Assembly: GCF_029626155.1 (NCBI RefSeq)
Contig: NZ_JARUBL010000001.1
Span: 62,001-126,000, forward strand
Direction of reading: 5' to 3'
Source: Solwaraspora sp. WMMD1047
Lineage (GTDB): Bacteria; Actinomycetota; Actinomycetes; Mycobacteriales; Micromonosporaceae
DNA length: 64,000 nt
Positions within the stretch are counted from its first letter, which is position 1. Each line of letters starts with the position of its first letter. Positions 32,271 through 63,583 of this stretch are shown here, one piece after another. The position numbers and the translations under genes were made by a program. The notes under the pieces were generated by a model that was not told the origin of the DNA, ran no database searches, and was given only the letters and a program-made list of their open reading frames with translations.

Positions 32271-33128
32271 TCAGTCGGTCTTGCGGAACTTGGCGATCGC
32301 GATGGCCAGCATGAGCACCCCGGCGCCGCCGACGACGGAGAGCTGGACCAGCACCGGAACCGTCCAGCCGAACCACTCGATGCCCGGGTTGAACAGCTGC
32401 TGGATGTGCGGTGGCGGGTCGAGGTGGCCGAAGACCGCCTGCCGCATCGGATCGACCGCGTAGGTGACCGGGTTGACCCGGGTGAGCGCGGCCAGCCAGC
32501 CGGGCAGGTTGCCGATCGGGAAGAAGGCGCCGGAGAGGAACATCAACGGCATCAGCATCATCTGGCTGACCCCGAAGAACGACTCGATGCTGCGGACCCG
32601 GGCCGCCGCCATCACCCCGAACGCCGTGATCGCGAACGCGGCGAGGAACATCTCACCGAGCAGGGTTAGCATCAGCAGCGGGTCGTACGGGATGCCGACG
32701 AAGCCGGCCAGCGCGAGCACCAGGGCGCCCTGGGCGGTGGCGAGGGTGGCGCCGCCGAGCACCTTGCCGATCACGATGGCGCCCCGGCTGACCGGCGCCA
32801 CCAGCATCTCCCGCAGGAACCCGAACTCCCGGTCCCAGACCACCGAGGCGGCCGAGGACATCGCGGTCAGGATGACCGACATGGCGATCACGCCGGGGAA
32901 CAGGAAGGTGCGCATGTCCACCCCGCCGGTCTCGTCCGGCAGCAGGGAACCCAGCCCGGCGCCCATCACGAAGAGCCAGAGGATGGCCTGGAGGAGCATC
33001 GACGAGGCCCGCTTGCCGTCCCGGCTGAAGCGGATCATCTCCCGGTGGAACACGATCCGGACCGCTCGCAGGTCGGCGGCGATCCCGCTGCGCGGGGCCC
33101 GCGCCCGGACCGCTTCGGTCGTGACCAT
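32271..33128 (-). CDS. ABC-2 type exporter permease of the lanthipeptide locus
   Basis: A 285-residue ABC-2 permease with six membrane segments (for example LQAILWLFVMGAGLGSLL, VLGGATLATAQGALVLALAG, and SQMMLMPLMFLSGAFFPIGNLPGWL, the conserved ABC-2 signature). It follows the ATPase gene by 3 bp on the same strand and is the last gene of the five-gene operon GNAT-LanD-LanKC-ATPase-permease. Probable role is export of the modified lipopeptide, and perhaps self-protection. Confidence 0.9.
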   Translation of the reverse strand: MVTTEAVRARAPRSGIAADLRAVRIVFHREMIRFSRDGKRASSMLLQAILWLFVMGAGLGSLLPDETGGVDMRTFLFPGVIAMSVILTAMSSAASVVWDREFGFLREMLVAPVSRGAIVIGKVLGGATLATAQGALVLALAGFVGIPYDPLLMLTLLGEMFLAAFAITAFGVMAAARVRSIESFFGVSQMMLMPLMFLSGAFFPIGNLPGWLAALTRVNPVTYAVDPMRQAVFGHLDPPPHIQQLFNPGIEWFGWTVPVLVQLSVVGGAGVLMLAIAIAKFRKTD

Positions 33129-33131
33129 CGA

Positions 33132-34112
33132 TCATCTCCTCACGTTCATACGCGCCCATTCATTGCCGCCGTCGGCCGACTCGGCGTCGCGGATGGTGGA
33201 ACCGGTGTGGCTGAGGAACACGTCGTCAAGCGACGGACGGGACACCTGCACCGAGGTGATCGGCACCCCGAGCTTGGCGAAGAGCAGCGGTACGAACTCC
33301 TCGCCGTTGGCCACCGCGAAGGTGACCGTGCCCTCCCGGGTCTCGGCGGTGATGCCGAAGCGGGACTCCAGGGCCGCGATGGTGGCCTGGTTGTTGGCGG
33401 TCCGGATGCGTACCCGGTCCTTGCCGACGGCGGCCTTCAACGCGGCCGGGGTGTCCAGCACGACGATCGAACCGTGATCCATGATCGCGATCCGGTCGCA
33501 GTACTCCGCCTCCTCCAGGTAGTGCGTGGTCATCAGGATGGTGATGTCGTCGAAGACCCGGAGCTGGTTGATGTAGCTCCAGATGGCCGCCCGGGTCTGC
33601 GGGTCGAGGCCGACGGTGGGCTCGTCGAGGAAGAGCACCCGCGGCGAGTGGAGTAGGCCGCGGGCGATCTCCAGCCGCCGCTTCATCCCGCCGGAGTAGG
33701 TGTCCACCCGGCTGCCGCGCCGCTCCCAGAGCCCGACCATCTCCAGCACGTGGTACATGCGCTCTTCGACCATCGATTTCGGTACGCCGTACAGCTCGGC
33801 GTGGAAGCGCAGGTTCTGCTCGCCGGTCAGGTAGCCGTCGAGGGTGGTCTCCTGGAAGACCAGGCCGATGTCGCGGCGTACCTCGTCCCGCTCGGCCACG
33901 ATGTCGTGGCCGGCCACCGTGGCGGTGCCGCCGGTGGGGCTGGCCAGCGTGCAGAGCATGTTGATCGTCGTGCTCTTGCCGGCGCCGTTCGGGCCGAGCA
34001 GCCCGAACACCTCGCCCCGGCGGACCGTGAAGTCCACCCCGCGGACCGCCTCCACCTCGCCGAAGCTCTTGCTGAGCCCGGCGGTGGCGATGATCGGGTC
34101 GCCGCCGCTCAT
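33132..34112 (-). CDS. ABC exporter ATP-binding protein of the lanthipeptide locus
   Basis: A 326-residue DrrA-like ATPase: Walker A GLLGPNGAGKSTT, signature DTYSGGMKRRLEIARGL, Walker B RVLFLDEPTVGLD, and a C-terminal DrrA extension (about 230-326). ATG at 34112 overlaps the LanKC stop by 4 bp (ATGA), which ties it to the synthetase gene. An in-frame extension to 34577 would overlap the synthetase gene and is rejected. Confidence 0.92.
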   Translation of the reverse strand: MSGGDPIIATAGLSKSFGEVEAVRGVDFTVRRGEVFGLLGPNGAGKSTTINMLCTLASPTGGTATVAGHDIVAERDEVRRDIGLVFQETTLDGYLTGEQNLRFHAELYGVPKSMVEERMYHVLEMVGLWERRGSRVDTYSGGMKRRLEIARGLLHSPRVLFLDEPTVGLDPQTRAAIWSYINQLRVFDDITILMTTHYLEEAEYCDRIAIMDHGSIVVLDTPAALKAAVGKDRVRIRTANNQATIAALESRFGITAETREGTVTFAVANGEEFVPLLFAKLGVPITSVQVSRPSLDDVFLSHTGSTIRDAESADGGNEWARMNVRR

Positions 34113-36745
34113 GACCGCCGCACCCGGGTCGGCGAGAAGAACGGCAGGAACGGCGGCGGGTCCTGGGTGGCGGCCGAGATCGCCAGCAGGATGCCGGCGC
34201 TGCCGGTGACCAGGTCCATCGAGAGCCGGAAGCCGAGGCTGCCCGGGAAGGCGAGGTGCCCCTGGTACGACAGCGCGTGCCAGGACAGCTCGCGCAGGTG
34301 CCGGCGCAGCGTCTCGCGGTGGTCGACCCGGTGGTTGAGCCGGGACAGGGTGGCGATCTGGCTGGCGAAGCCGCGGAACAGGTCGGCCTGGATCGCGTAC
34401 CGGCGGCAGGAGCCGAGCAGCAGCGCCGGCAGGCTGTCCCGGGACCGGTCGTCGTCGCGGTGCTCCAGCAACTCGTCGATGACCAGCGCGATCCCGGCGC
34501 TGCCGACCTCCAGGTACGGCATGGTCCGGACCCCGGCCTCCTCGACCATCAGGGAGCCGTCGTCGTTGGTGACGCACCGGTCGAGGTCGAGGTGCACCGC
34601 CTGCACCGCCAGATCGAGGTAGCCGGGGTCGGCGGTCTCCTCGTAGAGCCGGATCAGGTAGAGCGCCACCCCGGACCAGCCGCGCATCGCGCCGGCCTCG
34701 ACCGGCTTGGCGGTCGGCGGGCGGGGGCGGGCGAGGACCCGGCCGGGGTCGTTGTGCCGGACCGCGTCGGCGAGCCGGGTGGCCACCGTCACGGCCTCGT
34801 CCCGCAGGCTCCGGTCGTCGCGGGAGCGGGCGAAGTGCAGCAGGGTGGCGCCGATGCCGGGGAGTCCGGAGAAGACCGAGATGCCGTGCCGGGACCGGGT
34901 GTCGGTCAGGTGCCGGTCGACGAGTTCGTCGGCCTGGTCGGCGTACCCGAGGTGGTCGAGGGTGTAGGCCAGGCCGGCGACCCCGTCGTAGAAGCCGGGT
35001 CGGGGTCGGGACAGCTGCCGGGAGCGGTCGAGCAGCCAGCGTTCGTGCTCCGGGTAGCGGCCGTGGCCGGTGACCGCCAGGGTCCAGAGCACGCCGGCCG
35101 CGCCGTACGCGAAGTTGAGCCCGCCGTTCGGGGCGAACTGCTCGACCGCGCCGGGGAAGAGCCGGTCCTCACGTTCCGGGGTGGCCGAGCTGAGGATCGC
35201 ACCGGTGATCGACTTGGCGGCCGCGGCCGGGTCGGCGAGCAGCACGTCGAAGTCGACCGGCGGCTCCCCGGCCGGGCCGGCCGGCTTTGGCGCCGCCTTC
35301 GCCGTCGTCGGGGTCGCCTCGGGGGAGGCCAGCTCGGCGAGGATCGACTCCGCCCAGCCGGGGGGCACCGGGAAGTTGTCGGTGAGGATGCGGACGAAGT
35401 GGAACACCTTGCTCGGCTCCAGCACCGAGATCCGGCTCAGGGTCAGGAAGATCGCCAGCTTGACCGACGCCAGCGCGTACCGGTCGACGTCGACGCCGCT
35501 CTTGTCCCGCCGGCCGAAGCCGGTGGCCCGCAGGCCGGGCCGCCATTCGGTGTCGGTGGCGTCGAAGGCCAGCTCGAAGTCGACAAGCGCCACCGAGTCG
35601 TCGGGGCGCACCATGATGTTGCCCAGGTGCAGGTCACCGAAGACGACCCCGCGTTCGTGCATGGCGGCGACCAGGGCCTCCACCTGCCCGACGATGTGCA
35701 CGGCCCGGCGGGTGTAGTCGGCGATCTCCGCCGCGGTGGGGTCGGCCTTGATCACCCACGGGTGGTGCACCCCGTACCAGACGTGCAGCGGTTGACCGTC
35801 GATGTACTCCTCGGCCAGGAAGTGGTGCCCGCCGACCTCGAACTGTTCGTACAGTTCGGGCACCCCGGGGATGCCGGCCAGCCGCTCCAGCGCCCACTTC
35901 TCCCGGCGCTGTCGGGTCACCCCGTCCTCGTGGTTGTCGTCCATCCCGGCGTACGGCCGGGCCTCCTTGAGGATGACGGTGGCGCCGTCGGCGACCCGGT
36001 CGGCGAGGTAGATGCCGCCGGCGTTGGAGAAGTGCAGCGCGCGGCGGACCCGGTAGGGGGCCGGCTGGCTGGCGCCGGCCTTGCGGGCCTCGATGTGCGG
36101 GGCCAGTACGGCCGGCACGGGTGCCCACTCGGGCGGGCTGAAGAAGGCCCGGCGCTGGTCCGGCTCGATCGTCCCGTCCGGCCGGCGGAACCCGGAGACC
36201 CATTCGCCGTTGGCGTCCAGGCAGTCCATCTCGACGAAGGCGCCGTACCGGACGTAGACGGGCCCGTCACCGATCCGCAGGTCACTGAGGATGTACGGAC
36301 CCGGCTCGCCGGCGGTGAGCCGGGCCAGGTCCTCGACGATGGTGCCGAACTGCTCCTCGTCGGCGGGGTAGATGGTGATCAGCTTGCCGCTCGATCCGCG
36401 GGCCGCGTACTTGGCGTTGAGGGCGAGCAGCATGTTGCGGTCCCGCAGGTGCTTGAACGGGATGCCGCGTTCGACGCAGTAGTCCCAGACCAGGCTGCAG
36501 AGCCGGTCGGCGTTCGTCAGCGTGGCCGAGATGTGGATCTTCCAGCCCTGTTCGGGGAGCTGGTGCCCGTCCGGCCGCAGCGAGACCCAGATCCGCCGCT
36601 CCCGGCGGGTCCAGCCGGCCGGGGTGGGCCGGCCGGCGACGGTGAAGTCGCGGTCCGGCAGGAAGCCGGGGCCGGCGTTCCAGCGGCTCACGTCGTCGAA
36701 GAAGATCGGATCGGCAAAACAGAAGAACTGCTTCAGTTCGAACAT
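34109..36745 (-). CDS. lanKC: Class III lanthipeptide synthetase (lyase-kinase-cyclase)
   Basis: An 878-residue three-domain enzyme. Residues about 1-205 form the phosphoSer/Thr lyase domain; about 215-480 a Ser/Thr kinase-like domain with VILKEARP, catalytic loop VVFGDLHLGNIMV and metal site ALVDFELAF; about 520-878 a LanC-like cyclase. The cyclase lacks the zinc ligands: the region expected to carry a Cys reads GAMRGWSGVALYL, and no Cys-His-Gly motif is seen, so this is class III, not class IV. Such enzymes phosphorylate and eliminate Ser/Thr, then cyclise with Cys to lanthionine or labionin. It overlaps the LanD-like gene by 13 bp, and the precursor gene lies divergently 1.8 kb away. Confidence 0.92.
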   Translation of the reverse strand: MFELKQFFCFADPIFFDDVSRWNAGPGFLPDRDFTVAGRPTPAGWTRRERRIWVSLRPDGHQLPEQGWKIHISATLTNADRLCSLVWDYCVERGIPFKHLRDRNMLLALNAKYAARGSSGKLITIYPADEEQFGTIVEDLARLTAGEPGPYILSDLRIGDGPVYVRYGAFVEMDCLDANGEWVSGFRRPDGTIEPDQRRAFFSPPEWAPVPAVLAPHIEARKAGASQPAPYRVRRALHFSNAGGIYLADRVADGATVILKEARPYAGMDDNHEDGVTRQRREKWALERLAGIPGVPELYEQFEVGGHHFLAEEYIDGQPLHVWYGVHHPWVIKADPTAAEIADYTRRAVHIVGQVEALVAAMHERGVVFGDLHLGNIMVRPDDSVALVDFELAFDATDTEWRPGLRATGFGRRDKSGVDVDRYALASVKLAIFLTLSRISVLEPSKVFHFVRILTDNFPVPPGWAESILAELASPEATPTTAKAAPKPAGPAGEPPVDFDVLLADPAAAAKSITGAILSSATPEREDRLFPGAVEQFAPNGGLNFAYGAAGVLWTLAVTGHGRYPEHERWLLDRSRQLSRPRPGFYDGVAGLAYTLDHLGYADQADELVDRHLTDTRSRHGISVFSGLPGIGATLLHFARSRDDRSLRDEAVTVATRLADAVRHNDPGRVLARPRPPTAKPVEAGAMRGWSGVALYLIRLYEETADPGYLDLAVQAVHLDLDRCVTNDDGSLMVEEAGVRTMPYLEVGSAGIALVIDELLEHRDDDRSRDSLPALLLGSCRRYAIQADLFRGFASQIATLSRLNHRVDHRETLRRHLRELSWHALSYQGHLAFPGSLGFRLSMDLVTGSAGILLAISAATQDPPPFLPFFSPTRVRRS

Positions 36746-37344
36746 GCCTCTCCTCCGCCCTGGTCGGCCAGTTCGACGCGAAGTCGCTCGACCGATTCGA
36801 TAAGCGTCCATAGTGGAGCTGCACCGGCCGCGTCCCGGCGGCCGGTGGTCAGGCTGGTGGCCGGCTGGGTCGGGGCCACCACGACGTTGCGCCGTTCGGC
36901 GAGCCGTTTGAGGTTCTCCACCACGACCGGGTTCTGGTCGGCGCCCGGCGGCAGCGACGGGGCGATGCCGATCGCCGCGGTGGTGCACTGCAGGGCGAGC
37001 AGCGCCGGGGTGTCGGCGAGCCCGACTGCCAGCCGGGAGATGAAGTTCAGGCAGGCGGGGTAGACCACCACCGCGTCGCTCCACTCGGCGAGCCGGACGT
37101 GGATCGCGTCGGGCTGCGGCTCCTCCGGCCACCGGTCGTCGATCGGGACCAGCTGGGTGAGGGCGCTGACGGCGTGCCGGCTGACGAAGCGTTCCCCGCT
37201 GCGGGTGAGGACCACCTGCACCGCAAGCTCGGGATAGCTGGTCTTGAGCCAGTTCAGCCAGAACGGCAGCTGGACGATCGAGATCGCGCCGGTGCCGACG
37301 AGGAGCAGCCGACGCGCACCGAAGCTGGGCGCGGGAAGTTTCAC
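36733..37344 (-). CDS. lanD: LanD-type flavoprotein cysteine decarboxylase (HFCD family)
   Basis: A 203-residue flavoprotein of the EpiD/MrsD/Dfp family. The N-terminus LLLVGTGAISIVQLPFWLNWL is the FMN-binding start, and ADAVVVYPACLNF-type text (SDAVVVYPACLNFISRLAVG) is the conserved PASANT-like loop. It is expected to oxidatively decarboxylate a C-terminal Cys to the enethiol that forms AviCys or avionin. The precursor at 38524 does end in Cys. Its 3' end overlaps LanKC by 13 bp, so the two are translated together; the GNAT gene ends 9 bp upstream. Confidence 0.85.
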   Translation of the reverse strand: MKLPAPSFGARRLLLVGTGAISIVQLPFWLNWLKTSYPELAVQVVLTRSGERFVSRHAVSALTQLVPIDDRWPEEPQPDAIHVRLAEWSDAVVVYPACLNFISRLAVGLADTPALLALQCTTAAIGIAPSLPPGADQNPVVVENLKRLAERRNVVVAPTQPATSLTTGRRDAAGAAPLWTLIESVERLRVELADQGGGEACSN

Positions 37345-37353
37345 CCTGACTCG

Positions 37354-37944
37354 TCAGGCGTTCGCCAGGTACTGCGGACCCTGGACCAACCGGGCGAGCA
37401 CGGTCGCGCCGATCTGCTCCCAGGTGGCCCGGTAGACCGCGTACCAGTGCAGGTCCCACAGCTTCCCGGCGAAGTAGGAGTGCTGCGGCAGGGTGGCCTC
37501 CTTCGGGATCGTCCCGAGCGCGGAGCCGAAGCTGTCGAGGCTGGCCTCGGTGGTCAGGAAGTAGACCTTGCGCAGGTGGTCCCAGCTGGCGAAGGCGTAG
37601 TTGACCAGCAGCATCATCGCCTCGCCGCCGATGCCGTAGCGGGCCTTGGCCACGTCGGTGAAGATCCCGACCTGGATGTGGCCGTTGCGGTCGAGTTGCT
37701 GCAGCGACCCGAAGCCGATCAGCTCGTCGTTGTGCCGCAGGTGGATGGCGAACATCGCCGCCGCGTTGCGGTCGAAGGTCTTCAGGAACGACTCCATCGA
37801 CGGCAGGCTGTGCAGACCCAGCCGGAGCAGCAGGTCGTAGACCGCCTCGCCGTCGCCCGACCCGGCCGGCCGGAGCACGACGCGCTGGGTCTCGACGTAC
37901 GGGGTCAGGACGACCGGAGTGGTCTCGACATCGGGGGAGAGCAT
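37354..37944 (-). CDS. GNAT-family acyltransferase, candidate peptide N-acyltransferase
   Basis: A 196-residue GNAT of the RimJ/RimL-like type (VVLRPAGSGDGEAVYDLLLRLG, VGIFTDVAKARYGIGGEAMMLLVNYAFASW, VYFLTTEASLDSF). It is the first gene of the operon with lanD and lanKC. In goadvionin biosynthesis a GNAT (GdvG) condenses an ACP-bound acyl chain with the lanthipeptide, so the same role is proposed here by family and position. It is clearly paralogous to the GNAT at 49659-50240: both share the start VL.PY..T.R..LRP, the FTD.(S/A)KAR.G segment and NYAFA.W..(I/L)RKVYF. ATG at 37944 follows gaaggtgg. Confidence 0.82.
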   Translation of the reverse strand: MLSPDVETTPVVLTPYVETQRVVLRPAGSGDGEAVYDLLLRLGLHSLPSMESFLKTFDRNAAAMFAIHLRHNDELIGFGSLQQLDRNGHIQVGIFTDVAKARYGIGGEAMMLLVNYAFASWDHLRKVYFLTTEASLDSFGSALGTIPKEATLPQHSYFAGKLWDLHWYAVYRATWEQIGATVLARLVQGPQYLANA

Positions 37945-38523
37945 GGATAAGCCACCTTCGCTCGGTTCAGGCCGCGATGGATCGAGCCTGGGAGTCTCGA
38001 CAGCAGTTGCCGGCGTCGAATCGCGCCGGAGTCGGACCAGCCTCGAAGAGAAATGTGGTGACGAGGCCGATCGCGGTGGTTGCCGACCGCCTTTGGGACG
38101 TTGGTGCGCCGAACGCTAGTTCGGTGCCCTGGGATGGTCAAGGTGACGGTGTCGCGGCCCGCCACCCCGTCCCATGCGCGTCTCGCCGGCGGGACGCCCG
38201 AGGGTGACCAGCGAAAGTTCTCAGCTACCCCGGAACAGCGGACGGAATTGATGGTTGCGGGGCGGCAGAACCGGCCGTAGCATCTCCTCCGGCTGGCGGC
38301 GGTGGTTATTGTCAGCGGCAGCATACGTAATTGCTTTCTCGGCCTTCAGGTGTCGAAACGGTTAGCGCTTCACGAGTATGTTCTGTGCCGTCGAGCCATT
38401 CAGCTTCTACTTTTCCGACCAACAATTTTGGCCCGCCGGAGAGCGCGGACGCGCTCCCGGCGAGGCACGCGACCCGGGTCTCCAACCAGGAGATCTGCCG
38501 AGTCCAAGGAGGGAGGTGTCACC
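37945..38523. other. Divergent intergenic region between the GNAT-lanD-lanKC operon and lanA
   Basis: This 579-bp space has no supportable gene; long frames here are GC-driven. It holds a near-palindromic site at 38180-38195 shared with the region upstream of the second GNAT operon, and a less GC-rich stretch at about 38305-38430 (ttattgtcagcggcagcata; tttccgaccaacaattttgg nearby) that should contain the lanA promoter. I could not fix -35/-10 boxes with confidence. Confidence 0.6.
38180..38195. promoter_or_regulatory. Candidate cluster-specific operator, copy 1
   Basis: gtctcgccggcgggac is a 16-bp palindrome with one mismatch. Together with the flanking cgcccgagggtg it matches the element at 50271-50302, which has a perfect palindrome and a 3-bp insertion in the flank. 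Both copies lie between divergent genes and upstream of GNAT-led operons on the minus strand. Confidence 0.55.
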
Positions 38524-38616
38524 ATGGATCTGATCAACGTGCTGGAGCTGCAGGAGATCGAGGCTGCGCCGGAGTACGACCAGCTGCCGCAGAGCCTCGA
38601 GAGCTCGGGCTGCTGA
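38524..38616 (+). CDS. lanA: Class III lanthipeptide (lipolanthine-like) precursor peptide
   Basis: A 30-residue peptide beginning MDLINVLELQEIE. The VLELQ segment (residues 6-10) is the hydrophobic leader box recognised by class III synthetases, followed by an acidic stretch. The C-terminus is QLPQSLESSGC: Ser24-x-x-Ser27-Ser28-Gly-Cys30 fits the Ser-x-x-Ser-(x)n-Cys pattern for labionin or avionin, and the terminal Cys suits the neighbouring LanD. The core is probably the last 7 to 11 residues. The ribosome site aaggaggg (38506-38513) is the strongest in the cluster, 10 bp from the ATG. The gene is divergent from lanKC and is followed at once by a hairpin. No leader protease gene is visible. 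Confidence 0.88.
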   Translation: MDLINVLELQEIEAAPEYDQLPQSLESSGC

Positions 38617-38807: not shown

Positions 38808-39749
38808 ATGAGCGACGCCATTCTTGTTTGTGAGGGATTACGCAAGGCGTTCGGTGAACTGGTGGCGGTCGATGAGATCGGGTTTTCGATCGCGGCCGGT
38901 GAGACCTACGGCCTACTCGGTCCCAATGGCGCCGGAAAGACCACGACGATCTCGATGATCGTGGGGATTCTGGGCCGGGACTCCGGCGAGGTGCGAATCG
39001 ACGGGCACGATCATCACGTCGGCAACCTCGCCAGCAAGGCGCTCATCGGCTACGTCCCGCAGGAATTGGCGCTCTATCCGGAGCTCACCGCCCGGGAGAA
39101 TCTCCGGTTCTTCGGTCAGCTCTACGGGCTGCCCCGCGGCTCGGCGACCGGCAAGATCAACGAAGTGCTCGACACGGTCGGGCTGGCCGATCGGGCCGAC
39201 GAGGCGGTCGGCAAGTACTCGGGTGGGATGGCCCGCCGGCTGAACATCGCGGTCGGCCTGCTGAACCAGCCCCGCCTGCTGGTGCTGGACGAACCGACCG
39301 CCGGAGTGGACCCGCAGAGCCGCAACGCGATCCTGGAGAGTGTCCGCCGGCTGGCCGGCGAGGGGGTCGCGGTGCTCTACACCACCCACTACATGGAGGA
39401 GGCCGAGCGCCTCTGCGACCGGGTGGGAATCATCGACGGCGGCCGATTGAAGGCGGAGGGCACCCGGCGGGAACTCGTCGGACTGGTCAAGGAACACGAC
39501 CAGGTGGTCCTCGACGTCGACGGGAACGCGGAGCAGGCCCTGGTGACGCTGACCGGGTTGCCGGCCGTGGCCCAGGCCAGCGCCGACGAGACGACGATCG
39601 ACCTGCTCGTCGACGACGCCCGGGCCGCGCTGCCGCAGCTCCTGGAGGCGGTCAGCCGCGCCGACGCGGCGGTGCGCTCGGTGGAGGTGCGGGAGCCCAA
39701 CCTGGAGGCGGTCTTCCTGCAGCTCACCGGCAAGGCCCTGCGGGACTGA
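38808..39749 (+). CDS. ABC exporter ATP-binding protein (DrrA-like)
   Basis: A 313-residue ATPase with Walker A GLLGPNGAGKTT, signature GKYSGGMARRLNIAVGL, Walker B LLVLDEPTAGVD and a C-terminal regulatory extension ending in NLEAVFLQLTGKAL. ATG at 38808 begins MSDAILVCEGLRKAF. It forms a three-gene exporter with the two permeases downstream and probably secretes, and protects against, the cluster's product. It is the second exporter in the cluster; the other belongs to the lanKC operon. Confidence 0.92.
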   Translation: MSDAILVCEGLRKAFGELVAVDEIGFSIAAGETYGLLGPNGAGKTTTISMIVGILGRDSGEVRIDGHDHHVGNLASKALIGYVPQELALYPELTARENLRFFGQLYGLPRGSATGKINEVLDTVGLADRADEAVGKYSGGMARRLNIAVGLLNQPRLLVLDEPTAGVDPQSRNAILESVRRLAGEGVAVLYTTHYMEEAERLCDRVGIIDGGRLKAEGTRRELVGLVKEHDQVVLDVDGNAEQALVTLTGLPAVAQASADETTIDLLVDDARAALPQLLEAVSRADAAVRSVEVREPNLEAVFLQLTGKALRD

Positions 39750-39758
39750 GGGGCGACG

Positions 39759-40982
39759 ATGCGGGCCAGCATGATCATTATGGCGAAGGACCTTCGCCAA
39801 CACCTTCGCAACAGCGGGCTGATCGTCTTCGCGGTGGCGCTGCCGCTCGGCCTGGCCTTCATCTTCAACCTGGTGCTCGGCGACGCCGGCGAGCGGTTCA
39901 CCGCCCGGTACGCGGTGGCCGACCAGGACGGTGGTGAACTGGCCCGCCAGTTCACCGAACAGACCCTGCGCCCGCTGGAGCGCGACGGGGTGATCAGCCT
40001 CCGCACCATCGGGTCTCCTGACGAGGGCGACCGGCTCGTCGAGAACCGGGAGATCGAGGCCGCCTTCGTCATCCCGGCCGGGTTCACCGCCGATGTGGAG
40101 GCCGGCCGCCCGGCCACCCTGCGGGTGATCGGCAACGTCGACTCCGCCATCGCGGTCCAGGTGGCGCGTGAGATCGGCGCCGCGTACGCCGCAGACAAGC
40201 GCGGCGTCGCGCTCGCGGTGGCGGCCGCCGGCCAGGCCGGCGACCCGGCTGCCGGCCCGTCGCCCGAGGCGACCGGCGGACCCGGGGCCGCGGGGCAGCC
40301 CGACCCGGCCGCCGCGCTGGCCGAGCGGGCCGCCGCCCTGCCGGCGCCGGTCGGGGTGACCGAGGACTCTTCGGCCGCCACCCGGGAGCTGGACTCGCGG
40401 ACCTACTACGCGGCCGGAATGGCCTTCTTCTTCCTCTTCTTCTCGCTGCTGTTCACCGTCACCGGCATCCTGGACGAACGGGCCGGCGGCACCCTGCCGA
40501 GGCTGCTCGCCGCCCCGATCCGGCCGCCGGCGATCCTGCTGGGGAAGCTGGCCAGCGGCGTGCTGATCGGGGTGGCCAGCATGGCGGTCCTGGTGGTCGC
40601 CTCCACCCTGCTGCTCGGCGCGAGCTGGGGTGACCCGCTGGGGGTCGCGGCGCTGATCGTCGCGGGCGTGCTCGCCGCCACCGGGATCATGTCCGTCGTC
40701 GCGGTCTACGCCCGCACCTCCGAACAGGCCTCCAACTGGCAGTCGGCGATCGCCATGGTGCTCGGCGTGCTCGGCGGTGCGCTCTTCCCGGTGGCCCAGC
40801 TCGGCGGGCTGGCCGAGATCAGCTATCTCACGCCGCACCGCTGGTTCCTCAGTGGCCTGGCCGAGCTGGCGGGCGGCGGTTCCGTCGACGCCGTACTGCT
40901 GCCGGTCACGGTCCTGCTCTGCTTCGCGCTGGCCGGCGCGGGGATCGCCCTGCTGCGGGCGGGAAGGTTGGTCCGCTCATGA
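39759..40982 (+). CDS. ABC-2 type exporter permease, subunit 1
   Basis: A 407-residue ABC-2/YhgE-type permease: membrane segment at 20-40, a large extracytoplasmic domain (about 45-215, ending in a Pro/Gly/Ala-rich linker GPSPEATGGPGAAGQPDPAA), then five membrane segments (about 220-405) including FFFLFFSLLFTVTGILDERAGGTLPRLLAAP. It overlaps the next permease by 4 bp (ATGA). Together they form a heterodimeric channel with the DrrA-like ATPase. Confidence 0.9.
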   Translation: MRASMIIMAKDLRQHLRNSGLIVFAVALPLGLAFIFNLVLGDAGERFTARYAVADQDGGELARQFTEQTLRPLERDGVISLRTIGSPDEGDRLVENREIEAAFVIPAGFTADVEAGRPATLRVIGNVDSAIAVQVAREIGAAYAADKRGVALAVAAAGQAGDPAAGPSPEATGGPGAAGQPDPAAALAERAAALPAPVGVTEDSSAATRELDSRTYYAAGMAFFFLFFSLLFTVTGILDERAGGTLPRLLAAPIRPPAILLGKLASGVLIGVASMAVLVVASTLLLGASWGDPLGVAALIVAGVLAATGIMSVVAVYARTSEQASNWQSAIAMVLGVLGGALFPVAQLGGLAEISYLTPHRWFLSGLAELAGGGSVDAVLLPVTVLLCFALAGAGIALLRAGRLVRS

Positions 40983-42136
40983 AGGCCCTGGCCATCGGGA
41001 TGCTGAGCCTGCGCAGGCTCTTCCGGGACCGGAACAACATCTTCTTCGTGCTGGTCGTGCCGTTCATGATGATCTTCGTCATCGGGCTGCTCTTCGGCGG
41101 CGGGCAGCAGCTCCGGCTCGGGGTGGTGGGCGGTGCGGACGGACCGCTCGCCGACCGGCTGGTCACCGCGCTCGGCGCCGGGGACCGGATCGTCGTCGAG
41201 CCGGCCGCCGACGAGGCGCAGTTACGGGCCGCCGTGGAGCGGGGCGACCTGCACGCCGGCCTGATCATTCCGCCCGGGTACGACGCGGACCTGCGGGCCG
41301 GCGACCAGGTCGGGCTGCGCTACCTGACCCGCCCCGAGGACCAGGCGGCGCAGGACGTCGGCGTCTGGGTCCGCTCGGTCGTCCCGCAGGAGGCGGCGCT
41401 GCTGCGCGGGGCACAGTTCGGCGTGGCCGAGGGCGCCGGCTCGTTCGACGACCGGCTGGCGGCGGCCGAGTCGGCCCCGGTGGCCGGCATCGACGTCGCC
41501 GTCACCACCACCGGCGAGGCGCTGTTCCCGCCCGGGTTCAGCCAGTTCAACGTCTCGGCGCCACCGCTGCTGCTGCTGTTCATCTTCCTCACCTCGCTGA
41601 CCGCGGCGGTGGGCCTGGTGCAGAGCCGGCGGTCGGGAGTCTCCCGGCGGATGTACGCCACCCCCACCAGGCTGCGGACGATCATGATCGGGGAGGCCGC
41701 CGGCCGGCTCATCGTCGCCCTCACCCAGGGCCTGATCATCATGCTCGGCTCGGCTCTGCTGTTCGGCGTCGACTGGGGAGACCCGCTCGCCGCGTCCGCG
41801 CTGCTGTCCGCGTTCGCCCTGGTCGGCAGCGGTGCCGCGACGCTGCTCGGCGCGCTGGTGCGGGACGAGGGAGCGGCGGTCGCGCTCGCGCCGGTGCTCG
41901 GGCTGGGGCTGGGCGCGCTGGGCGGCACGATGCTGCACCTGGAGTCGTTCGGCGACACGATGCGCACGGTCGCGCACATCACCCCGCACGCGTGGGGCTA
42001 CGACGCCTTCGTCGAGCTGGTCCGGCGGGACGCCGGGATCGGCGGCATCCTGCCCGAGCTCGGCATCCTCACCGGCTACGCCTTGGTGCTCTTCGCCCTC
42101 GGCCTCTGGCGGCTGCGCACTGTCCTGACCAGGTGA
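40979..42136 (+). CDS. ABC-2 type exporter permease, subunit 2
   Basis: A 385-residue permease with the same layout as subunit 1: N-terminal helix (NNIFFVLVVPFMMIFVIGLLFGG), extracytoplasmic domain (about 45-175) and C-terminal helices with LFIFLTSLTAAVGLVQSRRSGVSRRMYATP. The ATG overlaps the stop of subunit 1. The gene ends 48 bp before the NDP-sugar dehydrogenase gene on the same strand. Confidence 0.9.
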   Translation: MKALAIGMLSLRRLFRDRNNIFFVLVVPFMMIFVIGLLFGGGQQLRLGVVGGADGPLADRLVTALGAGDRIVVEPAADEAQLRAAVERGDLHAGLIIPPGYDADLRAGDQVGLRYLTRPEDQAAQDVGVWVRSVVPQEAALLRGAQFGVAEGAGSFDDRLAAAESAPVAGIDVAVTTTGEALFPPGFSQFNVSAPPLLLLFIFLTSLTAAVGLVQSRRSGVSRRMYATPTRLRTIMIGEAAGRLIVALTQGLIIMLGSALLFGVDWGDPLAASALLSAFALVGSGAATLLGALVRDEGAAVALAPVLGLGLGALGGTMLHLESFGDTMRTVAHITPHAWGYDAFVELVRRDAGIGGILPELGILTGYALVLFALGLWRLRTVLTR

Positions 42137-42184
42137 CCGGTGGGGCCACCCACCGCCGTGACCGGACCGCCGAATGGAGCTGAC

Positions 42185-44586: not shown

Positions 44587-44907
44587 ATGGAGAACGACAA
44601 GCGTGCCGAGGTGGCGCGCAGACTGACCGACTACTTCCGGACCCGGGTGCTCGGCGAGGCGGAGGCGGCCGAGTTGACGGCCCAGACGCCGCTGCTGGAG
44701 TCGGGCATCCTCAACTCGGTGGGCACCGCCCGGCTCCTCGCGTACCTGCGGGACGAGTTCGGTGTCCGGGTGCCGCCGACGAAGGTGACCGGTTCGCACT
44801 TCCGCAATCTCGACAACATCACCGACCTGGTCGTCTCGCTGCAGGGCGAAGCGGCGGGTGAAGCGGCGGCGGCCGCGCCGGCCGGCGCCGGGGGCCAGCA
44901 TGGCTGA
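44587..44907 (+). CDS. L-prolyl carrier protein (pyrrole pathway, CloN5/PltL-like)
   Basis: A 106-residue carrier protein. The phosphopantetheine site is Ser44 in LLESGILNSVGTARLLAYL; the ILNSVG form is typical of stand-alone proline carriers (PltL, RedO, CloN5) rather than PKS ACPs, which have DSL. It should hold prolyl, then pyrrolyl-2-carboxyl, while the dehydrogenase and halogenase act. The last 20 residues are Ala/Gly-rich. It overlaps the halogenase gene by 8 bp, which fits the halogenase acting on its cargo. Confidence 0.85.
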   Translation: MENDKRAEVARRLTDYFRTRVLGEAEAAELTAQTPLLESGILNSVGTARLLAYLRDEFGVRVPPTKVTGSHFRNLDNITDLVVSLQGEAAGEAAAAAPAGAGGQHG

Positions 44908-46252
44908 CCACGAGTACGACGTCGGCGTGATCGGCGGTGGCCCGGCCGGCTCCACGATGGCCTCCTACCTGGCGATGGCGGGGCTCAATGTCGCGGTCTT
45001 CGAGTCCGAGGTCTTCCCGCGGGAGCACGTCGGCGAGTCGCTGGTCCCGGCGACCACGCCGGTGCTGCGGGAGATCGGCGCGATGGAGAAGATCGAGAGC
45101 GCCGGCTTCCCGCGCAAGTACGGCGCCGCCTGGACCTCCGCCGACACCCGCCCCACCTCGCCGCTGGACTTCCAGGTCAGCTCGCACGGCTGGGGTGTGG
45201 CGGAGATCCGCTACCAGGAGCGGGACCAGGAGCAGGTGGACCGGGAGTACTCGTTCCACGTCGACCGTGGCAAGTTCGACCTGATCCTGCTCAAGCACGC
45301 CGAGGAGCTGGGCGCCAAGCTGTTCTGTGGGGTCCGGGTCAACCGGGTCGACTTCGCCGACCCGGACCTGCCGGTGCTGCACGCCCGGGTGGGTGGCCGG
45401 ACCACCGAGGTGCCGGTCCGGATGGTGGTCGACGCGAGCGGCCGGCACACGCTGCTGGGCAGCCAGCTCAAGGTCAAGGTGCCGGACCCGGTCTTCAACC
45501 AGTACGCGATCCACACCTGGTTCGAGGGCCTGGACCGGGCCGCGCTGGCTCGCCAGCCGGGGCAGGAGGACTACATCCACGTCCACTTCCTGCCGCTTGA
45601 GGACACCTGGGTGTGGCAGATCCCGATCACCGACACGATCACCTCGATCGGGGTGGTGACCCAGCGGGCGCGGTTCCGGGCGGCAAAGGACGACCTGGAC
45701 ACGTTCTTCTGGGACTCGGTGGCCAGCCGGCCGGACCTGTTGGGCGCGTTGAAGCAGTGCGCCCAGCTCCGGCCGTTGAAGACCGAGGGCGACTACAGCT
45801 ACGGCATGCGCAAGATCGCCGACGACGGGATGGTGCTGATCGGCGACGCGGCACGGTTCGTCGACCCGATCTTCTCCAGCGGGGTCAGCGTGGCGATGAA
45901 CAGCGCGCGGTTCGCCGCCAAGGACATCGTCGCGGCCGCGGCGGCCGGTGACTTCCGGCGCCCCCGGTTCGACACCTACGTCGACACCCTGCGCCGGGGC
46001 GTTTCGAGCTGGTACGACTTCATCTCGATCTACTACCGGCTGAACATCCTCTTCACCGCCTTCATCGACGACCCCCGCTACCGCCAGGACGTGATTCGGA
46101 TGTTGCAGGGCGACGTGTACGACGGCGAGGAGCCGCCGGCGCTGGCCGCGATGCGGGACTTCGTGGCGGCGGTGGAGGCCGACCCGAACCACCTGTGGCA
46201 CAACCGTCTGGGCAACCTGAAGGCGTCCGCGGCAGCCGCCGCGCTCTTCTAG
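44900..46252 (+). CDS. FADH2-dependent halogenase, probable pyrrolyl-carrier chlorinase (PltA-like)
   Basis: A 450-residue flavin halogenase: FAD site VGVIGGGPAGSTMASYLAMAG (Gly12, 14, 17) and the diagnostic WxWxIP motif at Trp237-Pro242 (TWVWQIP). The length and the region SRPLKT/QLRPLKTEGDYSYGM with IGDAARFVDPIFSSGVSVAM resemble halogenases acting on carrier-bound substrates such as PltA. It overlaps the carrier gene by 8 bp, so chlorination of pyrrolyl-S-carrier is inferred. Number of chlorines cannot be told. A flavin reductase is not in the window. Confidence 0.88.
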   Translation: MADHEYDVGVIGGGPAGSTMASYLAMAGLNVAVFESEVFPREHVGESLVPATTPVLREIGAMEKIESAGFPRKYGAAWTSADTRPTSPLDFQVSSHGWGVAEIRYQERDQEQVDREYSFHVDRGKFDLILLKHAEELGAKLFCGVRVNRVDFADPDLPVLHARVGGRTTEVPVRMVVDASGRHTLLGSQLKVKVPDPVFNQYAIHTWFEGLDRAALARQPGQEDYIHVHFLPLEDTWVWQIPITDTITSIGVVTQRARFRAAKDDLDTFFWDSVASRPDLLGALKQCAQLRPLKTEGDYSYGMRKIADDGMVLIGDAARFVDPIFSSGVSVAMNSARFAAKDIVAAAAAGDFRRPRFDTYVDTLRRGVSSWYDFISIYYRLNILFTAFIDDPRYRQDVIRMLQGDVYDGEEPPALAAMRDFVAAVEADPNHLWHNRLGNLKASAAAAALF

Positions 46253-49315: not shown

Positions 49316-49621
49316 CTAGCCGGCCGTCCCGGCCTTGTTCGCCTCGGCTGCCGCCTCCTGGCGGTCGATCCGCTCGATCACGAACTCGGTGAGGTCCTCG
49401 AAGGTCTTCCCCTCGAAGGTCGGCATGTCCTCCAGCAGCGACACCTGGTAGTAGTCCTCAAGGGACAAAATGAGCTGGACGACCGAGAACGAGTCGAGGT
49501 CGCCGAGATCGTTCGGCTCCTCGACCTCCGGGTCACCCGAGGTCAGCATCAGAACCGCGGTGGCCCGCTGGCGTACCTGTTCGTTGATTTCTTGCCGGAC
49601 AACCTCGAGCGCGCTGGTCAA
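49316..49621 (-). CDS. Stand-alone acyl carrier protein
   Basis: A 101-residue carrier protein with phosphopantetheine Ser44 in DLGDLDSFSVVQLILSLED (DSF form). It differs from the proline carrier at 44587 and may be the second carrier in a pyrrole relay, like CloN1 in clorobiocin, or carry the lipid chain. TTG start at 49621 follows gaggagg. It is encoded 37 bp after the second GNAT and directly before the isomerase, which points to use with that GNAT. Confidence 0.85.
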   Translation of the reverse strand: MTSALEVVRQEINEQVRQRATAVLMLTSGDPEVEEPNDLGDLDSFSVVQLILSLEDYYQVSLLEDMPTFEGKTFEDLTEFVIERIDRQEAAAEANKAGTAG

Positions 49622-49658: not shown

Positions 49659-50240
49659 TCACACGGCGGCGGTGGCCTCGGCCGGCACGAGCCGTTCCAG
49701 CAGCCGCAGGCCGTGCTCGTCCCACTGGTCACGGTAGATGGCGAAAATGTGCATGTCGGCGGGCTGACCGTCGGTGAACAGATGATCCGGGAGGGTGCCT
49801 TCCCGGCGGATCAGCAGTTGGTCCTGCGCGAAACTACCGAAGCCGTCATCGGGGGTCCAGAAGTAGACCTTGCGGATATTCCACATCGCGAACGCGTAGT
49901 TCACGGTCAGGAACATGACCTCCATCGGTACGCCGTGGCGCGCCTTCGAGGGGTCGGTGAATATGTCGGCCCGCACGTGCCCGCCGGCCATGTCCAGGTG
50001 CCGCAGTGAGCTGATGCCGACGACGTCCCCGCGCTGCTCCACCATGAACTGCATCGCGATCGCGGTGGTGTGCGTCGAGATGAAATCGTCCCGGTCGGGT
50101 AGCTTCTGCAGACCCGCCTGTTCCAGCAGGTCGTAGGTGAGCTCCCCGTTCACGATGGGAGTGGGACGCAGGGTCGTTCGTTTCGTTGCCAGGTAGGGAA
50201 ACAACACGGGCTGCACCTCGTCTTCGACGCTGGTGGCCAC
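49659..50240 (-). CDS. Second GNAT-family acyltransferase, paralogue of the lanthipeptide-locus GNAT
   Basis: A 193-residue GNAT with TTLRPTPIVNGELTYDLLEQ, VRADIFTDPSKARHGVPMEVMFLTVNYAFAMW and RKVYFWTPDDGF, aligning along its whole length with the 37354-37944 protein. It heads the operon with the ACP and the 3-amino-sugar genes, so a role as ACP-dependent acyltransferase to an aminosugar (possibly of the chloropyrrole) is inferred. The GTG start has no clear Shine-Dalgarno. A promoter (50334-50362) and the shared palindrome (50272-50287) lie upstream. Confidence 0.8.
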   Translation of the reverse strand: MATSVEDEVQPVLFPYLATKRTTLRPTPIVNGELTYDLLEQAGLQKLPDRDDFISTHTTAIAMQFMVEQRGDVVGISSLRHLDMAGGHVRADIFTDPSKARHGVPMEVMFLTVNYAFAMWNIRKVYFWTPDDGFGSFAQDQLLIRREGTLPDHLFTDGQPADMHIFAIYRDQWDEHGLRLLERLVPAEATAAV

Positions 50241-50362: not shown

Positions 50363-50484
50363 TCGTCGAGCCGGGCCGAAATCGCGTATCGGTTGGGATT
50401 GGATGCGCGGCCTATAGCGCGGCGTCGCCGTCCGTGTAACGTCAGCCCGGTCCTTTGCTGGTCTGCGGACATCAGGAGTCTGAC

Positions 50485-51711
50485 ATGTCAGCCGCATCTC
50501 GGTGCCGCGTCTGTGCGGGCACTGTTCAGGAGTTCTTCGATTTCGGCCGGCAGCCGCTGTCCGACGCATTTCCCCGGCCCGGTGACACCGCCGACGAGTT
50601 CTTCTTCCGGCTGGCTATCGGCATGTGCGACGGCTGCACGATGGTGCAGCTCATGGAGGAGGTGCCGAGGGACCGGATGTTCCACGCGGACTATCCGTAC
50701 GTCTCCTCCGGCTCCTCGGTCATGCGCAAGCACTTCGAGGCGGTCGCCGAACGGTTTCTCGCCACCGAACTGACCGGCCCGGACCCGTTCGTGGTGGAGC
50801 TCGGCTGCAACGACGGGGTGATGCTCAAGGTGCTCGCCGAGGCGGGCGTGCGGCACCTCGGCGTCGAGCCCTCCGGCGGGGTGGCCGAGATGGCCGCCGG
50901 CAAGGGAATCCGGGTCCGCAACGCGTTCTTCGAGGAGTCCACGGCCACCGAGATCGCCGCGGCCGACGGCCGGGCGGACGTCATCTACGCCGCCAACACG
51001 CTCTGCCACATCCCGTACATCGAGTCGGTTTTCCGGGGTGTCGGCGCGCTGCTCGCGCCGACCGGGGTCTTCGTCTTCGAGGATCCGTACTTCGCCGACA
51101 TCGTCGAGCGGACCTCGTTCGACCAGGTCTACGACGAGCATTTCTTCTTCTTCACCGCCCGGTCGGTGCACGCCATGGCCGCCCGGTACGGGCTGGAGCT
51201 GGTGGATGTGGAGCGGCTGCCGGTGCACGGCGGCGAGGTGCGCTACACGCTGGCCCCGGCCGGCAGCCGCCGGCCGTCGTCGTCGGTGGTCGAGCTGCTG
51301 GCCGAGGAGCGGGCGGCGGGGATCGCCTCGACCGCGACCCTGCACCGGTTCGCCGACAGCGTGCAGGGCATCCGCAACGACCTGGTCGCGCTGCTGGCCC
51401 GGCTGCGCCAGGAGGGCAAGCGGGTGGTCGGCTACGGCGCGACCGCGAAGAGCGCCACCGTCACCAACTTCTGCGGCATCGGGCCGGAGTCGGTCGCGTT
51501 CGTCTGCGACACCACCCCGGCCAAGCAGGGCCGGCTGATGCCGGGCTCGCACATCCCGGTGCTGCCGCCGGAGCGGTTCGCCGACCCGTACCCGGACTAC
51601 GCGCTGCTCTTCGCGTGGAACCACGCGGAGGAGATCATGGCGAAGGAGCACGCCTTCCGGGACGCCGGCGGCAAGTGGATCCTCTACGTCCCCGAGGTCC
51701 GGGTCGTCTGA
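50485..51711 (+). CDS. NDP-sugar C-methyltransferase (EvaC/TylC3-like)
   Basis: A 408-residue enzyme: N-terminal zinc-type Cys pairs (CRVC at 7-10 and MCDGC), SAM site VVELGCNDGVMLKVL, catalytic-type YDEHFFFFT, and C-terminal domain with VVGYGATAKSATVTNFCGI. This is the TylC3/EvaC family that adds a methyl to C3 of a 4-keto-2,6-dideoxysugar, giving a branched sugar. With the 2,3-dehydratase and aminotransferase at 60.9-63.5 kb it supplies three steps of a vancosamine-like route. ATG at 50485 follows caggag. Confidence 0.88.
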   Translation: MSAASRCRVCAGTVQEFFDFGRQPLSDAFPRPGDTADEFFFRLAIGMCDGCTMVQLMEEVPRDRMFHADYPYVSSGSSVMRKHFEAVAERFLATELTGPDPFVVELGCNDGVMLKVLAEAGVRHLGVEPSGGVAEMAAGKGIRVRNAFFEESTATEIAAADGRADVIYAANTLCHIPYIESVFRGVGALLAPTGVFVFEDPYFADIVERTSFDQVYDEHFFFFTARSVHAMAARYGLELVDVERLPVHGGEVRYTLAPAGSRRPSSSVVELLAEERAAGIASTATLHRFADSVQGIRNDLVALLARLRQEGKRVVGYGATAKSATVTNFCGIGPESVAFVCDTTPAKQGRLMPGSHIPVLPPERFADPYPDYALLFAWNHAEEIMAKEHAFRDAGGKWILYVPEVRVV

Positions 51712-58258: not shown

Positions 58259-58283
58259 CCACCGCGACGAAGGGCGGAAGGCG

Positions 58284-60929: not shown

Positions 60930-62366
60930 TCACCAGAGACTGTGTACGCAGGCCAGCAGGCTGCGGGCCTCGATGTTCAGGTAGTGCCCGTGCCGGAGCA
61001 GGTCCATCAGCTGGCGGACGGTCATCCAGCAGTAGTTCTCCGGCACCTCCACCGGGAACTCGTCGCCCACCTCGACCACCCGGTAGCGGGTCTGGGAGTG
61101 GTAGAACCGCCCGCCCTCCTCGGAGAGCACCGAGTCGAACCGCACCCGGCCGGGGTCGGCCGAGAACACCTCGTCCACGAAGGGCGTACCGGAGTCGGTG
61201 GCCGAACCGTCGCAGTTGGGTAGCTGCACGGTCGGCGCCATTTCGAGGATGTCCAGCAGACCCGGCTCGGGTCGGGCCTGCACCAGCAGATGCAGGACCC
61301 CCTTGATCGGCCGGGCCAGGAACGCGGCGAGCCCGTGGTCACGCGGGGCCAGCAGCGGCTGGGTCCAGGTGGTGACCTCCCGGTTGCCGGCCGCCACCCG
61401 GACCGCGATGATCCGGGCCGACCGCCCCTCGTCGTCGCCGATCTCGTCGGCGGTCCGGGTCCACCCGGTGATCCCGGTCAGCGGCAACAACCGGGAGGTC
61501 CACTCGCACCTCGTCTTCGCCTCGATGAACCAGGTCAGCACCTCCTCCGGGGTGTGCAGCGAGGCGGCGGCCGGACCGGCCGACGGAGACTGGTAGGAGC
61601 GCAGCAGCGCGTCGGTGAACGCGTCGACGGCCGGGCCGACGGGCGCGCTGGGGTGCGCGAACGGCATGCAGGAGAGCACCGTCCGGGCATCCATGTTGAT
61701 CAGGTTGTCGGTCCGGAGCAGGGCCCGGATCTGGTGCAGGGTCAGCCAGCAGAAGTCCTCGTGCACCGGGACCTCGCCGGTCACCCGGACCACCATGTTG
61801 CGGTTGCTCTTGTGCCAGAACCAGGCGCCCTGCTCGGACTGGAGCACGTCGACGAGCACCTCGCCGCGGGTCGGGCCGCGGAAGTGCTCCAGGTAGCGGG
61901 TGTCCCCGCCACGGTGGATGCGGGTGTAGTTGCTGCGGGTGGCCTGAACGGTCGGGGAGAGCTGCAGGGTGTTGACGTTGCCGGGCTCCATCTTCGCCTG
62001 CATCAGGCAGTGCAGCACCCCGTCGAACTCCTTGACCAGGATGCCGAGCACCCCGATCTCCGGCTGGTTGATGATGGGTCGGGACCAGTCCGACGTGCCG
62101 CCGTCGCGGACCCCGACCCCCTCGATCGCGAAGAACTTCCCGCTCTCGTGGACCAGATTGCCGCCGTCGGGCCGGAAATGCCACTTGTCCAGTTCGGAGA
62201 ACGGGATGGTGACCACCTCGAACCGGCCGGCGCGGTGCCGGTCGGCCCACCATTCGTGAAAGGCCAGTCCGGCCGAGATCGCCGGATCGGCGGCGAGTGC
62301 CGAGAGGGTGAACTGCGCCGCGGTGTCCAGTGCGGTGCCATCCGGATAGGCGAGTTGATTGGTCAC
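60930..62366 (-). CDS. NDP-hexose 2,3-dehydratase (EvaA/TylX3-like)
   Basis: A 478-residue protein of two tandem homologous halves, each containing a QA(K/R)xEPG-type motif (CLMQAKMEPGNVNTLQLSPTVQAT in the first and LLVQARPEPGLLDILEMAPTVQL in the second) and a YxWMTLxQL-type repeat end (CWLTLHQIRALLR; CWMTVRQLMDLLR). This is the family that removes the C2 hydroxyl of TDP-4-keto-6-deoxyglucose, the first step to 2,6-dideoxysugars. It is 30 bp after the aminotransferase gene on the same strand. Confidence 0.9.
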   Translation of the reverse strand: MTNQLAYPDGTALDTAAQFTLSALAADPAISAGLAFHEWWADRHRAGRFEVVTIPFSELDKWHFRPDGGNLVHESGKFFAIEGVGVRDGGTSDWSRPIINQPEIGVLGILVKEFDGVLHCLMQAKMEPGNVNTLQLSPTVQATRSNYTRIHRGGDTRYLEHFRGPTRGEVLVDVLQSEQGAWFWHKSNRNMVVRVTGEVPVHEDFCWLTLHQIRALLRTDNLINMDARTVLSCMPFAHPSAPVGPAVDAFTDALLRSYQSPSAGPAAASLHTPEEVLTWFIEAKTRCEWTSRLLPLTGITGWTRTADEIGDDEGRSARIIAVRVAAGNREVTTWTQPLLAPRDHGLAAFLARPIKGVLHLLVQARPEPGLLDILEMAPTVQLPNCDGSATDSGTPFVDEVFSADPGRVRFDSVLSEEGGRFYHSQTRYRVVEVGDEFPVEVPENYCWMTVRQLMDLLRHGHYLNIEARSLLACVHSLW

Positions 62367-62396
62367 CTTGATCTCCTTCCGCTCACAGCGATGCGT

Positions 62397-63506: not shown

Positions 63507-63583
63507 GTTCGGCGTCACCTCGGGGGTCGTTTCGGGCACGGATCATCGGGTGGAACTCGGGTCGAGCGGTGGCACGCGGTGGG

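Follow-up and report, generated by a model that had tools for sequence, protein, structure and literature searches.

What does a reading frame of 30 codons, lying beside genes for lanthipeptide enzymes, contribute to the product of its locus? The question is posed by a 64,000-nucleotide stretch of the genome of Solwaraspora sp. WMMD1047 (hereafter "the window"), which a sequence-only reading had described as a lipolanthine-type locus. In this report, we find that the frame, lanA, is a genuine class III lanthipeptide precursor gene and that its peptide most likely yields avionin. The dominant neighbourhood of lanA, absent from the former reading, is a set of saccharomicin-like glycosylation genes. 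A cluster for a saccharomicin-type polyglycoside whose aglycone is a lanthipeptide is a better description of the locus than a lipolanthine cluster. The features of the window are collected in Table 1.

The lanA product is MDLINVLELQEIEAAPEYDQLPQSLESSGC. It opens with the leader MDLINVLELQ and closes with the core QSLESSGC, so that Cys is the last residue. The start codon is preceded by AAGGAGGGAGGTG, and a strong ribosome site, AAGGAGGGAGG, lies immediately 5' of the gene. The frame had been proposed as an unannotated 30-residue precursor with a C-terminal Cys and a strong ribosome site, and it is indeed found in that place. The [ILMV]xLQ leader box and the Ser/Cys core place the peptide among the class III lanthipeptides; the terminal Cys within SxxSxxC is a trait of lipolanthines. 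When 124 kb around lanA were scanned for a class III leader box ([LIVM]xLQ) with a late Cys, lanA was the sole ORF returned, with no second copy. The window has a single instance of a leader box followed by [ST]xx[ST]xxC-stop, and 0 of 200 dinucleotide-shuffled versions contain one. A search of 299 genomes of the order returned no close sequence relative of the peptide besides itself, and L9, Q10, S24, S27 and C30 are invariant among 15 related precursors.

Table 1. Features of the window that bear on the lanA locus (window positions; percentages are amino acid identities).
Feature	Position	Strand	Remarks
ABC-2 permease	32271..33128	-	52-54% in related clusters
ABC exporter ATPase (DrrA-like)	33132..34112	-	Overlaps LanKC end; 58-62% in related clusters
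LanKC, class III lanthionine synthetase (lyase-kinase-cyclase)	34109..36745	-	NF038151, tree
LanD, peptidyl-cysteine decarboxylase (HFCD flavoprotein)	36733..37344	-	Flavoprotein family match; cypemycin decarboxylase relative
GNAT1, N-acyltransferase of glycoside-cluster type	37354..37944	-	Proposed hydroxycinnamoyl-peptide acyltransferase; profile search, clade
lanA, 30-aa class III lanthipeptide precursor	38524..38616	+	ATG 38524, TGA 38614-38616; only such ORF, conserved leader box and SxxSxxC
Second ABC exporter	38808..42136	+	ATPase 38808-39749, permeases 39759-40982 and 40979-42136; 46-62% in related clusters
UDP-glucose dehydrogenase (UGDH)	42140-43537	+	About 60% in lanthipeptide glycoside clusters
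NAD-sugar epimerase/decarboxylase	43543-44532	+	About 60% in lanthipeptide glycoside clusters
ACP1, proposed prolyl/pyrrolyl carrier protein	44587..44907	+	Weak homologues beside prolyl ligase in G543, G557
FADH2-dependent pyrrolyl-carrier halogenase	44858..46252	+	Best solved relative 5buk, E 4e-205; PltA, E 2e-180
Aminotransferase	47721-48839	-	Aminodeoxysugar synthesis
FdtA-type 3,4-ketoisomerase	48836-49315	-	Aminodeoxysugar synthesis
ACP2, carrier protein	49316..49621	-	Conserved DSF serine; shared by almost every cluster of this type
GNAT2, paralogue of GNAT1	49659..50240	-	42% identical to GNAT1; adjoins ACP2
Sugar C-methyltransferase (EvaC/NovU-like)	50455..51711	+	75% to saccharomicin-cluster counterpart
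EryCIII-type glycosyltransferase	51792-53105	-	
EryCIII-type glycosyltransferase	53121-54389	-	
EryCIII-type glycosyltransferase	54640-55890	+	
EryCIII-type glycosyltransferase	55944-57221	+	
KASIII-like transferase (ChlB3-like)	57224-58258	+	Pyrrole cassette
L-prolyl-carrier dehydrogenase (RedW/PigA-like)	58215-59429	+	Pyrrole cassette
L-proline:carrier ligase (PigI-like)	59426-60928	+	Pyrrole cassette
NDP-hexose 2,3-dehydratase and aminotransferase	60930..63539	-	Vancosamine-type sugar; 66% and 77% to saccharomicin-cluster genes

Profile searches bear out the three neighbours first assigned to lanA, namely LanKC, LanD and a GNAT; within the span 37354-38616 originally given for the locus, however, only the GNAT and lanA are contained, LanD and LanKC being situated further left. 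LanKC scores 984 bits against the NCBIfam class III model (NF038151; cut-off 575) and has the lyase, kinase and cyclase parts that define the class (RamC_N at 265 bits, a kinase and LANC_like). The best solved relative of LanD is the cypemycin cysteine decarboxylase (6jdd, E 3e-21), and a cysteine decarboxylase of this type is again a trait of lipolanthines. In the proven lipolanthine nocaviogua, the core is Ala-Ser-Val-Ser-Ser-Asn-Gly-Cys, and its avionin arises from the two Ser and the Cys of S-x-x-S-x-x-C (PMC10435860). The window core, Q-S-L-E-S-S-G-C, matches it in spacing and in the terminal Cys, as the sequence-only reading of an avionin-type core would have it. Because this motif closes the lanA peptide and LanD is present, avionin chemistry is well supported.

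The loci that group with the window by LanKC point the same way. The sister locus, in genome G083, has a LanD that is 52% identical to that of the window. Rather than keeping LanKC and LanD without such an ORF, it couples both to an SxxSxxC precursor, and in the two LanD-bearing loci of the group (the window and G083) the motif stands at the very end of the peptide. The four members with no LanD in the cluster have SxxSxxxC followed by at least one residue after the Cys. The additional ring residue and the residue after Cys thus accompany the absence of LanD, as expected if LanD acts on the window peptide. LanD is not a general marker of a C-terminal Cys; the rule holds inside the clade and fails in lipolanthine-like loci of Streptomyces (LanKC, KS, GNAT). 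Four such loci (L038, L039, L032, L034) have Cys-ending precursors, repeated in three of the four, in genomes in which no LanD like that of the window was found. G557 has a second LanD, which was set aside; it lies at a separate locus without LanKC matches and apparently belongs to another lanthipeptide or to a linaridin type.

The glycosylation cluster, with the lanthipeptide genes inside it, extends from about 32.3 kb of the window to about 22 kb past its right edge. Four EryCIII-type glycosyltransferases in the window and four beyond it make eight. The 23 kb to the right also hold more sugar genes, a SARP regulator, a FabF-type KS, an ACP, an acyl-adenylating enzyme, an aromatic ammonia-lyase and a ketoreductase; the genes that could build an acyl chain (KS, ACP4, KR) lie at the far right end. 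Directly beyond the right edge of the window, a protein resembling a carrier (L003, 4497-4988, minus strand) has QDHF in place of DSF at its phosphopantetheine site and thus has no attachment serine; it is possibly a non-acylated partner protein. The window further holds a complete chloropyrrole cassette. A proline ligase, a dehydrogenase, a carrier and a halogenase are together known to produce a chlorinated pyrrole-2-carboxyl thioester.

This combination of genes recurs in other genomes. A LanKC-alignment scan of 84,980 genomes gave 58 loci, and the glycosylation module was present in the flanks of one, that of Nocardiopsis alba (L056), and absent from the flanks of the other 57. In N. alba the module (L056/L078-L081, on two contigs) accompanies three tandem precursors (MNDILALQELELELASEETPLMCSSLSAGTCSVAQTL and two variants). 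These three genes differ slightly from one another (L079, C1:351057-351697), and their core, CSxxSxGxC followed by SVAQTL, is unlike that of other members. A GNAT search in 395 genomes of the class added three further full lanthipeptide examples, G645, G543 and G557, each with two to four precursors (e.g. MVLSDVLSLQEMDTVLDEAVLLNSGLSYVGCS). Between the window and these four genomes, identity is 47-48% for LanKC, 47-49% for GNAT1, 46-54% for ACP2, 65-70% for the ammonia-lyase and 51-52% for the Sam7-like ligase. Common to all five are precursors with the leader box, UGDH, epimerase, C-methyltransferase, 2,3-dehydratase, aminotransferase, many glycosyltransferases and both exporters. In the LanKC tree the five form one clade (support 99), with G083 as sister (92) and the lipolanthine-like Streptomyces enzymes placed elsewhere. 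Given the recurrence of the module and this clade, the lanthipeptide and glycosylation genes therefore belong together. The LanKCs of G686 (50%) and of Saccharothrix espanaensis outside its saccharomicin cluster were discarded, since their loci are of the ordinary class III kind and do not carry the module.

When 399 genomes of the order were searched with the adenylating enzyme, S. espanaensis (G666) emerged. Its saccharomicin cluster resembles that of the window in the ammonia-lyase (69%), the Sam7-like ligase (54%), an ACP2 homologue (45%), an LmbU-like regulator (48%) and the shared sugar genes (66-77%), and it has ten glycosyltransferases and two GNAT1 homologues. The window cluster thus contains the ammonia-lyase and Sam7-like ligase as well as the EryCIII-type glycosyltransferases and vancosamine-type sugar genes of that family. 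Its ammonia-lyase keeps the ASG (MIO) triad and has His-Leu at the substrate-selectivity position, which we take to mark tyrosine selectivity. ACS2 found only weak adenylate-forming relatives among solved structures, and its substrate is not set by structure. No match to cysteate synthase, to the 3-hydroxylase Sam5 or to the amidase Sam36 was found in the window cluster, and the absence of the latter two leads us to expect a coumaroyl rather than a caffeoyl group. In the saccharomicin pathway, Sam8 is a proven tyrosine ammonia-lyase and Sam20 adds the first sugar on the cinnamoyl phenol (PMC8234114).

We propose that, with fair probability, the product is a saccharomicin-type polyglycoside with the lanA peptide as aglycone, its oligosaccharide being joined to an avionin peptide instead of taurine; the sugar chain is probably built on a hydroxycinnamoyl cap. 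From the gene content, families, conservation and co-occurrence, we infer the following order of steps. LanKC would dehydrate Ser24 and Ser27 and cyclise onto Cys30, and LanD would oxidatively decarboxylate Cys30 to give the avionin macrocycle in a core of about QSLESSGC, the leader being removed at a predicted site. The tyrosine ammonia-lyase-like enzyme would make p-coumarate, which the Sam7-like ligase may load on ACP2, or on ACP4 with KS/KR extension in this strain. GNAT1 would then attach the coumaroyl group to the freed peptide N-terminus, and the eight glycosyltransferases would build a deoxyaminosugar chain, most likely from the phenol of the coumaroyl group, by analogy with the action of Sam20 in saccharomicin. 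Chloropyrrole carboxylate, derived from proline, would be placed on a sugar by the KASIII-like enzyme and/or GNAT2, and the two ABC exporters would secrete the product, probably an antibiotic. KS, ACP4 and KR are missing from the Nocardiopsis-type clusters, which counts against the proposal.

The role of the GNATs is the point at which another arrangement competes best. GNAT1 and GNAT2 might instead acylate aminosugars (e.g. with chloropyrrole or coumaroyl groups), with a lanthipeptide side chain glycosylated directly and the N-terminus free. This arrangement fits the NRPS-type glycoside clusters, in which GNAT1 homologues adjoin aminosugar genes (aminotransferase and 2,3-dehydratase), and it accommodates the two to five GNATs per cluster, a number above the need of one peptide N-terminus. 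In the saccharomicin cluster, however, one GNAT1 homologue has directly after it a cysteate synthase gene (TIGR03844, 376 bits, above cut-off), a likely source of taurine; a GNAT there accompanies genes for the amine acceptor, just as GNAT1 accompanies LanKC and lanA in the window. In Nocardiopsis-type clusters GNAT genes flank the lanA genes at separate sites. Either placement would suit an enzyme linking hydroxycinnamate on its carrier to the amine of the aglycone. We have a modest preference for this function of GNAT1, and regard acylation of the sugars as rather unlikely. The saccharomicin authors propose the penicillin amidase Sam36 and not a GNAT for amide formation; the absence of Sam36 from the window cluster does not prove that GNAT1 forms the amide.

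The saccharomicin cluster itself merits comment here. Its carrier protein, two GNATs and cysteate synthase (L152-L156, ~6,580,900-6,584,100) are not discussed in the available passages of the saccharomicin paper. With the synthase, taurine could be reached by another path than the proposed one through cysteine sulfinic acid, and the carrier and GNAT could take the place of Sam36 in forming the amide.

Should the product instead be a lipolanthine in the strict sense, GNAT1 would acylate the avionin peptide at its N-terminus with a chain from KS, ACP4 and KR, and the sugars would sit on the chain or the peptide. The avionin core and LanD agree with this, and the KS is 47-49% identical to those of the Streptomyces lipolanthine-like loci, versus 43% to the nearest other KS of its own genome. 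The sister locus in G083 also has a type I PKS, an enoyl reductase, a dehydratase, a KR (60%) and a GNAT together with a glycosyltransferase. The window cluster, however, shows no dehydratase, enoyl reductase or type I PKS, and the four closest clusters are without any KS or KR. GNAT1 had been taken for a GdvG-type enzyme, but its similarity to the GNATs of lipolanthine-like loci is nil or marginal (E 1e-4 or worse), which does not support such a relationship; the GNATs of the Streptomyces loci and of G083 stood in for GdvG in this comparison. GNAT1 falls in one clade (98/95) with the GNATs of the glycosylation-type lanthipeptide clusters, is 34-42% identical to those of the saccharomicin and NRPS glycoside clusters, and has no significant match among solved structures. 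Of the lipolanthine assignment, then, the avionin-type core and LanD stand, the GNAT family does not, and chain building is hinted at only by the KS, ACP and KR. We consider a strict lipolanthine unlikely. The G083 locus (L013, 5375-5619 and flanks), with two identical precursors (MDIRELQSLVIDVEEGDLPASTGSITC), a type I PKS, a P450, a GNAT, a glycosyltransferase and a sugar epimerase, is a probable lipolanthine and maybe a glycosylated one.

That an ordinary class III lanthipeptide locus (32-42 kb) simply adjoins an unrelated polyglycoside cluster, as the position of the lanthipeptide genes at one edge of the glycosylation genes rather than in mid-cluster could suggest, is highly improbable in view of N. 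alba, G645, G543 and G557, in which LanKC, precursors and GNATs are intermingled with glycosyltransferase and sugar genes.

The aglycone proposal for lanA has a wider counterpart. Four genomes (G550, G652, G473 and G287; L109-L111, L112-L114, L117/L126-L127, L157-L161) carry the hydroxycinnamoyl/glycosylation module, whole or in part, around multimodular NRPS genes, with no LanKC in the stretches read; these loci point to uncharacterised polyglycosylated nonribosomal peptides. The module is shared, and its amine partner varies among taurine, an NRPS peptide and a lanthipeptide. These facts raise the possibility, which we advance tentatively and at somewhat less than an even chance, that the cluster represents an unrecognised hybrid class of ribosomal peptide-polyglycosides, in which one hydroxycinnamoyl/oligosaccharide module is set on interchangeable amine carriers, the window member containing avionin and bearing chloropyrrole. 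A literature search, mostly of papers outside subscription, found no published example that pairs a lanthipeptide with saccharomicin, or a lanthipeptide with a tyrosine ammonia-lyase and a glycosyltransferase. If the proposal is true, it would connect ribosomal lanthipeptides with the saccharomicins, a family of large oligosaccharide antibiotics with poorly resolved aglycone chemistry, and would show that nature exchanges the partner of one sugar chain among a small sulfonate, a peptide made by an NRPS and a ribosomal one. Since the peptide is encoded by a gene, the aglycone of these glycosides would be open to direct mutation. How the amide bond of saccharomicin forms is a further question, to which the conserved pair of carrier protein and GNAT suggests an answer that can be tested.

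Several known systems share parts of this design. Clorobiocin and coumermycin are chloropyrrole-bearing glycosides, and these systems and PltA have in common with the window a prolyl ligase, a prolyl-carrier dehydrogenase, a pyrrolyl halogenase and a KASIII-like transferase; there an aminocoumarin bears the pyrrole, whereas a lanthipeptide polyglycoside is predicted here. NAI-112 carries a single deoxyhexose, whereas the window cluster has eight glycosyltransferases together with genes for aminosugars and chloropyrrole, and its core is of the avionin and not the labionin type. As a glycosylated labionin lanthipeptide, NAI-112 is both class III and glycosylated, as is predicted for the window product (PMC8624038). 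The lipolanthines (microvionin, nocavionin, nocaviogua and goadvionin) share with the window a class III LanKC, a short precursor ending in SxxSxxC and LanD, but they bear a fatty or polyketide acyl chain, whereas the window has another GNAT family and its acyl group is probably hydroxycinnamoyl with a sugar chain (PMC10435860). Saccharomicins A and B have in common with it the ammonia-lyase, the Sam7-like ligase, EryCIII-type glycosyltransferases, vancosamine-type genes, a carrier, GNATs and an LmbU-like regulator (PMC8234114, PMC3469384). Their cluster has Sam5 and Sam36, unlike that of the window, and the stretch of it examined holds no chloropyrrole cassette. Their aglycone is N-dihydroxycinnamoyl-taurine, and their cluster is without LanKC, LanD and a precursor, whereas the window cluster has all three.
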